A stretch of 64,000 bases of DNA from positions 1-64,000 of the forward strand of contig JAIOUW010000004.1 of the NCBI GenBank assembly GCA_019931105.1, in the 5' to 3' direction. The notes below the pieces were generated by a model. The model had not been told where the DNA came from. It saw nothing but the letters and a program-made list of their open reading frames with translations, and did no database searches. Below, piece by piece: positions 62,278 through 63,616 of the stretch (the stretch's first letter is position 1; every line of letters begins with the position of its first letter). Made by a program: the position numbers and the translations under genes. The stretch is from Flavobacteriaceae bacterium NBU2977 (GTDB lineage: Bacteria > Bacteroidota > Bacteroidia > Flavobacteriales > Flavobacteriaceae).

Positions 62278-63102
62278 TTATACGGCTACGGCCCCTTTAA
62301 TATGTGGGTGCGGGTCGTAATCCAATAGGGTAAAATCCTCGAATTTGAAATCGAAGATATCCGTGACTTCAGTATTGATCATCATTTTCGGTAGCGGTCT
62401 GGGCTCTCTGCTCAATTGAAGTTCGACCTGCTCCATGTGGTTGTTGTAGATATGGGCATCACCAAAGGTATGTATGAATTCTCCGGGTTCGTACCCGCAT
62501 ACCTGTGCCATCATCATGGTGAACAGGGCATACGAAGCGATGTTGAACGGAACGCCTAAAAATATATCGGCGCTGCGTTGATAGAGCTGGCATGAAAGTC
62601 TGCCATCGGCCACATAAAACTGAAAAAAGGCATGACAGGGCGGCAGGGCCGCTTTTCCGTTCGCTACATTTTCAGAAAATGATTTCGAGGTATCGGGCAA
62701 TACGCTCGGGTTCCATGCCGAGATCAACATACGCCTACTGTTCGGATTGTTCTTCAAAGCATGTACGATTTCCTGTATTTGGTCGATTTCGTCATTGTTC
62801 CAATTGCGCCATTGATGGCCATAAACGGGTCCCAAGTCGCCGTTTTCATCGGCCCATTCGTTCCAAATACGGACTCCGTTTTCTTGCAGGTACTTGATAT
62901 TGGTATCGCCTTTTAGAAACCATAACAGTTCATGAACAATGGATTTTAGGTGCAATTTTTTGGTCGTGACCATAGGGAAGCCCTCGCTCAGGTCGAATCG
63001 CATTTGATAGCCAAAAACACTCATTGTGCCCGTGCCGGTGCGATCGCCTTTTTGGTTGCCGTTTTCGAGTACGTGTTTTAGTAAATCGTGGTATTGTTTC
63101 AT
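62278..63102 (-). CDS. thyA: Thymidylate synthase
   Basis: A 274-aa enzyme that methylates dUMP to dTMP with methylenetetrahydrofolate. The catalytic Cys156 is in [12 protein letters not shown]. The folate and dUMP motifs [22 protein letters not shown]-like [28 protein letters not shown] and the C-terminal [10 protein letters not shown] are all present. It carries about ten extra residues ([13 protein letters not shown]) before the active site compared with the 264-aa E. coli enzyme. An inverted-repeat arm of the neighbouring element starts only 12 bases upstream of its ATG. Confidence 0.97.
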
Positions 63103-63113
63103 TATGGGGCTAA

Positions 63114-63542
63114 AGGTAAAGGGTTATGGGTAAAAGGTCAAAGGTCTAATGCTTTGAGTTATTATATTTTATCAACGAGGCGATGCGCTTTTGCAAAATT
63201 TGAAGTTCATCTATAACTGGAGAAATTTCTTCGTATTTGATAAATTCCAAATCAGCGCAGAGAATTAAATGCGATTCTAATTCGTAAGCCGAACCAAGAC
63301 TAATCTGTAAAAATCTAACAAAATCTTTTTGCGAATATTTTGATGAACCTTCTGCGATATTCGCAGGTATTGATATAACACATCGGTTTATCTGTGATAT
63401 CAACCCGTATTTTTCTTCTTGAGGTAATTGTTTTGTGATAAGGTAGATTTCTTTAACTAGTCTTCTGGCGTCTTTCCAAACTTCAAGTTCCCTAAAGTTT
63501 CTCATATTCAAACTTTAATCTTTTACCTGTAACCCTTGACCT
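63114..63542. repeat. Inverted-repeat-bounded element carrying a four-helix-bundle gene
   Basis: The left arm (63114-63143) and right arm (63513-63542, other strand) match at 25 of 30 positions and share AAGGGTTA and GGTAAAAG blocks. The arms enclose exactly the four-helix-bundle gene. As RNA they could form a long stem, as 23S rRNA intervening sequences do. Confidence 0.65.
63146..63505 (-). CDS. Four helix bundle protein (S23 / 23S rRNA intervening-sequence family)
   Basis: A 119-aa protein with the family's conserved start MRNFRELEVWKDARRLVKEI, the core SQINRCVISIPANIAEGSSK and the DFVRFLQISLGSAYELESHL segment. Members form small helical bundles and were first seen in intervening sequences of 23S rRNA genes; some relatives assist diversity-generating reverse transcriptases. 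A TTG two codons upstream (63511) could be read as a start, but the ATG at 63505 fits the family. It lies inside 30-base inverted repeats, and no reverse transcriptase is nearby. Confidence 0.9.
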   Translation of the reverse strand: MRNFRELEVWKDARRLVKEIYLITKQLPQEEKYGLISQINRCVISIPANIAEGSSKYSQKDFVRFLQISLGSAYELESHLILCADLEFIKYEEISPVIDELQILQKRIASLIKYNNSKH

Positions 63543-63544
63543 CC

Positions 63545-63616
63545 CTACCCCAAAATCATACCGGCAATGGTAACTGAAAGCAAAGTGGCCAAAGATATGG
63601 CCGTTGTTGTATCTTT
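63545..63616 (-). pseudogene. Coding-like 3' remnant of a membrane protein
   Basis: Between the stop of the next gene and the right inverted-repeat arm, the minus strand reads KDTTTAISLATLLSVTIAGM-ILG-stop. This hydrophobic tail resembles a transporter's last membrane helix. It has no start codon of its own and looks like the end of a lost gene, possibly a nucleoside transporter; that identity is a guess. Confidence 0.4.

Follow-up and report, generated by a model that had tools for sequence, protein, structure and literature searches.

Inverted imperfect heptamer arms frame IVP genes at operon stop/start junctions in several bacterial phyla

The profiles PF05635 and TIGR02436 describe the 23S rRNA intervening sequence protein (IVP), a four-helix bundle protein. 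In the available text of PMC4990558, the IVP/S23p proteins are without a known function, the structure of the Xanthomonas IVP is a homopentamer, and the 23S rRNA intervening sequence (IVS) of Coxiella burnetii has a long terminal stem with an IVP-family open reading frame in its loop. The insert that we describe here, upstream of the thymidylate synthase gene (thyA) of Flavobacteriaceae bacterium NBU2977, has the same layout and the same approximate length (both are about 430 nt), but it lies between the tail of a transporter gene and thyA, whereas the Coxiella element lies within 23S rRNA. According to the same available text, the Coxiella IVS is cut by RNase III in vitro and, immediately 5' of the S23p ORF, contains tandem heptamers (GACAGAT), so that the kinship of our insert to the IVS goes beyond a likeness of layout. 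Reductive evolution is described for the Coxiella ORF (PMC4990558, available part), in contrast with the low dN/dS found here at several sites.

Heptamer repeats, e.g. TAACTGA, are reported from Beggiatoaceae, Cyanobacteria and five Bacteroidetes in the portion of PMC4679880 at hand. As at our locus, these repeats have a period of 7 and lie between genes, in most cases shortly before a start codon, but they are described as direct repeats (169 sets, one inverted, in the main genome studied there), whereas ours are inverted. Heptamers are also found in Xanthomonas and Nostoc (PMC4692102, available text), and the P6b stem of the cyanobacterial tRNA-Leu intron is built of the degenerate heptamers TDNGATT and NNTGAGT (PMC4476775, available text), although P6b is the stem-loop of a group I intron and the thyA insert is an IVP gene insert. 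By our own reading, the reverse complement of TAACTGA (TCAGTTA) fits the consensus TNAGWNN obtained below, as does NNTGAGT when rotated, and TDNGATT fits save for one free position. The available text of PMC4679880 makes no mention of 23S, S23, IVS or four helix, and that of PMC4692102 makes none of IVP or four helix. Our literature search found no paper that connects heptamer arms with IVP genes located outside rRNA, which is weak evidence of novelty because most subscription journals were outside its scope. These papers, in the parts available, describe the role of the IVS and the origin of heptamer repeats in bacteria as unclear, and the loci described below may tie the puzzle of the rRNA intervening sequence to the unexplained seven-base repeats of many genomes.

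The IVP gene and its arms at thyA

The window (the whole stretch of DNA that was analysed, 64,000 nt) contains an intact reading frame on the minus strand at 63146-63505 (ATG 63505-63503, stop 63148-63146), directly upstream of thyA (62278-63102, minus strand, identified by reading frame and profile matches). The initial annotation had called it an S23/IVP-type gene, which the reading frame and the matches to PF05635 (E=2.4e-37, 127.8 bits, cut-off 33.8) and TIGR02436 (E=1.1e-35, 122.2 bits, cut-off 24) confirm, placing the protein within both families. Among solved structures, 2gsc (E=2.8e-20), which is Xanthomonas XCC0516, and 2rld (E=2.1e-6) are related to it by sequence. Upstream of the insert lies the 3' tail, with its stop codon, of a nucleoside transporter gene of the PF07662 family (63545-63592, minus strand); among the 30 thyA loci that we fetched, many have the full transporter gene (Nucleos_tra2), with its end directly upstream of thyA. 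In many IVP-less relatives among L047-L074 a GTTRATAA-type motif can be seen by eye upstream of thyA, often right after the transporter stop, and this is possibly a thyA regulatory element.

Two arms enclose the gene, each recognised by complementarity and by a tract of lag-7 self-matches. In gene sense, the 5' arm (63506-63542, minus strand, heptamer tract 63507-63545) begins 2 nt past the stop codon of the transporter tail, and the 3' arm (63114-63150, minus strand, heptamer tract 63111-63151) takes in the IVP stop codon and stops 11 nt short of the thyA ATG. The two 30-base arms with 25 matches that had been proposed from the sequence were located exactly: 63114-63143 and 63513-63542 are complementary at 25/30 positions, and the extended arms at 29/37, so that they are predicted to form a terminal stem as in an IVS. 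Their local alignment score of 21 was reached by 0/3000 dinucleotide shuffles (mean 8.1, maximum 17). Each arm is an imperfect tandem repeat of 7 nt. With a cut of at least 20/28, the tract at 63111-63151 is the sole lag-7 tract in the 64-kb window, and lags 5, 6 and 8-11 give none; with a cut of 19/28, the tract at 63507-63545 appears as the second and last one, while a single tract is found at each of lags 8 and 13 and none at lags 4, 5, 6, 9, 10 and 11.

The initial annotation read this arrangement as an rRNA intervening sequence moved to a protein-coding locus. The layout itself stands: an IVP/S23p reading frame, as present in some IVSs, sits inside a long stem, and the arrangement recurs in the genome and across phyla. 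A relocation from rRNA is not supported: no fetched locus looked ribosomal in a check limited to seven short oligos for 23S context, which in the loci below L225 gave one lone motif, in L016. The insert at thyA does not lie in an rRNA gene: its neighbours are the transporter tail and thyA, and no rRNA family was found among the Rfam matches up to E=0.1 between 61800 and 64000; the matches were to leaders and sRNAs only, all under their gathering scores.

An altered thyA leader, also proposed initially, is doubtful because the thyA-side arm is present in two congeners, G001 and G002, that have no IVP gene at thyA. These genomes retain the 3' arm together with the adjoining stretch that in our genome encodes the last IVP codons (counterpart of 63103-63179, minus strand, delimited by eye in L046, L049 and L096). 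The 3' arm therefore either predates the insertion or was left behind by a loss.

Anatomy of IVP loci within the genome and across phyla

A PF05635 profile search of the genome (G000; 3.82 Mb, 18 contigs, 99.97% complete) gave 15 matches, which we count as 14 loci because two of them are halves of one frame-broken copy. In this search four of the 14 copies (L003, L011, L013 and L014) had an internal stop or a frame break; a profile search can also miss broken copies, as with L076 (G003), which was matched in pieces by tblastn. A search for other copies with the same arms had been proposed; there are indeed 14 IVP loci, but the arm sequence is not fixed: no arm shared across the copies was found, each locus has its own heptamer, and the flanks differ in sequence while consisting, by eye, of 7-nt units with an inverted partner. 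One arm or more attained 17/28 at lag 7, the 99th percentile of shuffles, in 11/14 loci (both arms in 4), and neither arm did in L004, L011 and L012. The G-rich arm is the one that follows the upstream stop codon in gene sense.

We compared the arms of each locus with each other and with those of other loci. In our genome, pairs from different loci scored 9.2 on average and own pairs 9-23, with the own arm ranking first in 8/14. After addition of 29 loci of relatives, taken from the best matches of the relatives' search, own pairs in the 43 loci averaged 16.8 vs 9.8 (sd 2.2) for other pairs, and the own arm came first in 22/43. L040 (a fragment on a short contig) and L041 (below cut-off) were kept in this comparison and dropped from most other arm statistics, leaving 41 loci. 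In these, the lag-7 match was 0.450/0.453 vs 0.307/0.308 for shuffled arms (z 15.2 and 15.9), lags 14 and 21 gave z of about 12 and 8, and every other lag stayed under |z| 4, a tandem periodicity of 7 nt like that of heptamer simple-sequence repeats; 34/41 had one arm or more at 17/28 or above, and 16 had both. The arms are predominantly inverted: over 120 loci the inverted score averaged 16.6 vs 10.5 for the direct one, being better in 98, tied in 5 and worse in 17. Arms swapped between loci at the same site scored 13.05 vs 15.5 for own arms, a modest excess for the latter.

The same features were found in a scan of named genomes, from which we took the best 80 of at least 557 confirmed loci. 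All but L204, whose flank is short, could be used in the arm test (n=79), with phyla grouped by record titles and 17 as the 99th percentile of a mononucleotide shuffle. Within this best-80 set, one arm or more reached 17/28 in 57/79 loci (36/53 from Bacteroidota and 21/26 from other phyla), both arms in 19 and 13, respectively, and neither in 17/53 and 5/26; an inverted score of at least 15 was obtained for 38 of the 53 and 16 of the 26. The loci outside Bacteroidota include, under the labels of their records, Thiohalocapsa, a Fibrobacter MAG, Lyngbya, an Oscillatoriaceae MAG and a Mesorhizobium MAG. Both neighbouring genes were co-directional with IVP in 59 of the 71 usable loci of the same best 80 (9/80 were excluded for too short a flank).

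From 140 arrays with at least 17/28 matches we derived the consensus TNAGWNN, i.e. T-N-A-G-(T/A)-N-N, with 8% C and a log-likelihood of -1038 vs at best -1095 for column-permuted arrays. TNAGWNN stands on the 5' side in gene sense and its reverse complement on the 3' side. A 5' tract of at least 17/28 was present in 67 of 117 loci and the upstream frame was co-directional in 65 of these; in 52/65 the upstream stop codon lay between -15 and +35 nt from the start of the tract (median +2). In our genome the 3' arm mostly ends near the downstream start codon. It is well supported that IVP genes across phyla share this anatomy, inverted imperfect heptamer arms at stop/start junctions, and the gene at thyA is one of many such loci, part of something larger.

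Folding, selection and empty junctions

The reading that we favour, and regard as probable, is that of an IVS-like insert adapted to operon junctions, which would fold as a hairpin and so keep the host stop and start codons together. The insert would be co-transcribed with the operon, pairing of its arms would create a hairpin whose loop contains the IVP frame, and the stop and start codons of the host would be held close, so that the insert would be nearly neutral, much as an rRNA IVS is to the ribosome. The stem is probably cleaved by RNase III, and the heptamers would gain and lose units by 7-nt slippage with complementarity maintained. The IVP protein may act in trans on heptamer hairpins, in which case gene-less hairpins would be expected to accompany IVP. 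Function and movement are what we infer, and the anatomy is what we observe.

Predicted folds of the 14 inserts of our genome are consistent with a hairpin: pairing between left and right arms exceeded the mean for shuffled left arms in 14/14, the first paired base lay at most 13 nt from the host stop codon in 14/14, and, of the 13 inserts with a defined start, 10 had their last paired base at most 10 nt from the start codon. The maximum of 20 left-arm shuffles equalled or exceeded the real pair count in 10/14; in the thyA locus (L002), 38 bases of the left arm pair with the right arm and the best of 20 shuffles gave 36. We rejected duplex energy as decisive proof of arm pairing (own arms -34.1, cross-locus -22.3) because the wrong-orientation control was also strong (-29.4). 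With regard to the protein, dN/dS was 0.04-0.12 in 6/14 pairs (four sites; dS was at least 1.7 in three of the six) and 0.35 and 0.55 in two others, the remaining six being saturated, which suggests purifying selection at several sites.

A comparison with empty sites had been proposed at the outset, and IVP-less orthologous junctions do exist in congeners, at thyA (G001 and G002) as elsewhere. Relative to our 14 sites, G001 lacks IVP at ten (L001, L002, L004, L005, L006, L008 and L011-L014) and carries it at four (L003, L007, L009 and L010). Five of the ten IVP-less junctions have gaps of 2, 5 or 9 nt or gene overlaps of 1 or 4 nt; the overlap at the L006 site is shared by G001, G002 and G003, and the 9-nt gap at the L008 site by G001, G002 and G013. 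Compact junctions repeated across congeners favour a compact ancestral state. Occupied junctions compared by eye with empty ones are altered and ambiguous against the congeners, with no clear target duplication seen. The L007 junction of G002 (L134) holds a different small gene, presumably GxxExxY-like, preceded by inverted repeats; inserts of a similar kind may also be used by other small genes.

The compact junctions bear on an alternative that we hold to be rather unlikely, namely that IVP genes are old residents of operons with a regulatory hairpin, inherited vertically, so that absences are losses and nothing moves. Such inheritance with losses fits the IVP tree as well as insertion does, since copies at the same site in different genera cluster (thyA L002 and L057 with support 100/98, four hemE rows with 100/100), and it is also consistent with the low dN/dS values and with the relic-like 3' arm at thyA in the congeners. 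The tree, which has few columns and 17 open forks and omits the frame-broken L011 and L135, places IVPs of different clades at the acyl-CoA dehydrogenase junction (L014 vs L026/L035), and this, like the short or overlapping IVP-less junctions, speaks against purely vertical descent. The names hemE, hemW and acyl-CoA dehydrogenase at the junctions are those that we take the genes to bear. The hairpin reading and vertical inheritance are not fully exclusive, and the probabilities that we give them therefore overlap.

Heptamer arrays beyond IVP genes

Heptamer tracts also occur away from IVP. Noncoding lag-7 tracts distant from IVP genes numbered 4 and 3 in two parts of our genome, 3 in G002 and 12 in G009 (400-kb samples), and 0 in 300 kb of G011, 0 in 100 kb of G035 and 1 in 400 kb of G037, which are IVP-less. 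With a strict pattern of four TNAGWNN units, arrays were found in 23/27 IVP-bearing vs 0/13 IVP-less relatives (Fisher 2e-7), or in 10/13 vs 0/5 when only genomes of 2.0-3.5 Mb were considered (p 0.0065); when G036, whose sole IVP match is below cut-off, was recounted as IVP-less, the figures became 22/26 vs 1/14. A reversed control pattern was found in 17/27 IVP-bearing relatives and 0/13 others, as TGAGT-type units satisfy the reversed pattern too.

We extended the count to 148 sampled genomes of the phylum, 116 of which have IVP. The strict pattern was present in 73/116 IVP-bearing (43/116 had no such array) vs 5/32 IVP-less genomes (p 2e-6), and it rose with the number of IVP copies, from 5/32 with none through 17/40 with 1-2, 12/24 with 3-5 and 24/31 with 6-9 to 20/21 with 10 or more. 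Since the pattern also matches IVP arms, part of this rise follows from the way of counting, and the control for genome size and phylogeny was only crude. By hand count among the places listed, 19/21 distinct places in G004 and 5/7 in G021 are separated from every IVP match by more than 1 kb.

Arrays of this kind, distant from IVP genes and present in 5/32 IVP-less genomes, are what would be expected if the heptamers were host simple-sequence repeats produced by polymerase slippage in tolerant spacers, with IVP among them and inversion arising through template switching. A slippage hypothesis for heptamers is indeed reported by Rehm et al. (PMC4692102, available text), and one of the thyA arms occurs without the gene. 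We nevertheless consider slippage of host repeats an unlikely explanation, given that arms pair locus by locus, with inverted exceeding direct scores in 98/120, that clear 5' tracts begin at stop codons, that the share of genomes with arrays goes from 16% to 95% as IVP copies rise (IVP arms included), and that the consensus is common to several phyla.

Gene-less heptamer hairpins were identified by eye at the L014 site in G001 (L095) and at the L013 site in G013 (L127), G003 (L128) and G020 (L129). These look MITE-like, and presence/absence between congeners at short or overlapping junctions could likewise point to a conventional IS- or MITE-like mobile element moved in trans by some transposase. 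No fixed terminal repeat common to the copies was found, however; the gene has no transposase domain (the IVP match and a weak bAvd match were the only ones), the tree contains no near-identical recent copies among the loci of our genome, and no clear target duplication was visible by eye, so that an element of this kind appears very unlikely. Least probable of all, to the point of being hardly credible, is a relative of retroelements in which IVP is an Avd-like reverse transcriptase partner copying heptamers through RNA: the protein does show weak similarity to the Avd of diversity-generating retroelements (DGR), but far under the cut-offs (bAvd, E=8.7e-4, 20.2 bits, cut-off 40; DivGenRetAVD, E=1.6e-5, 25.1 bits, cut-off 80), and the absence of any PF00078 (RVT_1) reverse transcriptase match in the 99.97%-complete genome, vs 3/14 control genomes with a match, makes a DGR-like route unlikely.

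The hairpin reading can be extended, tentatively and with less confidence than the hairpin itself, to a broader one. IVP proteins would define a class of bacterial elements, with or without the gene, whose ends are a repeat grammar and not a sequence; the grammar would be that of inverted TNAGWNN heptamers, with the unit free to change per locus; the elements would colonise operon stop/start junctions in trans of IVP, without an encoded transposase or reverse transcriptase; and rRNA IVSs, the heptamers of cyanobacteria and Beggiatoa and the P6b stems of tRNA-Leu introns might all be offshoots of one system. The shared junction anatomy, the rise of arrays with IVP copies and the cross-phylum consensus make IVP function testable, and they raise the questions of whether IVP binds or spreads heptamer hairpins and whether such hairpins let foreign genes enter operons harmlessly.

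Some individual arrays of our genome may be mentioned separately. The heptamer tract at G000:C8:356370-356413 lies in the gap before a gene that we take to be RhuM-like, which is followed by a second, presumably IS200-like, gene. For the arrays at G000:C8:1375523, 5488 and 179014, even the best inverted partners within 1.5 kb are not strong (scores 9-13), and all three arrays are located at or soon after stop codons.
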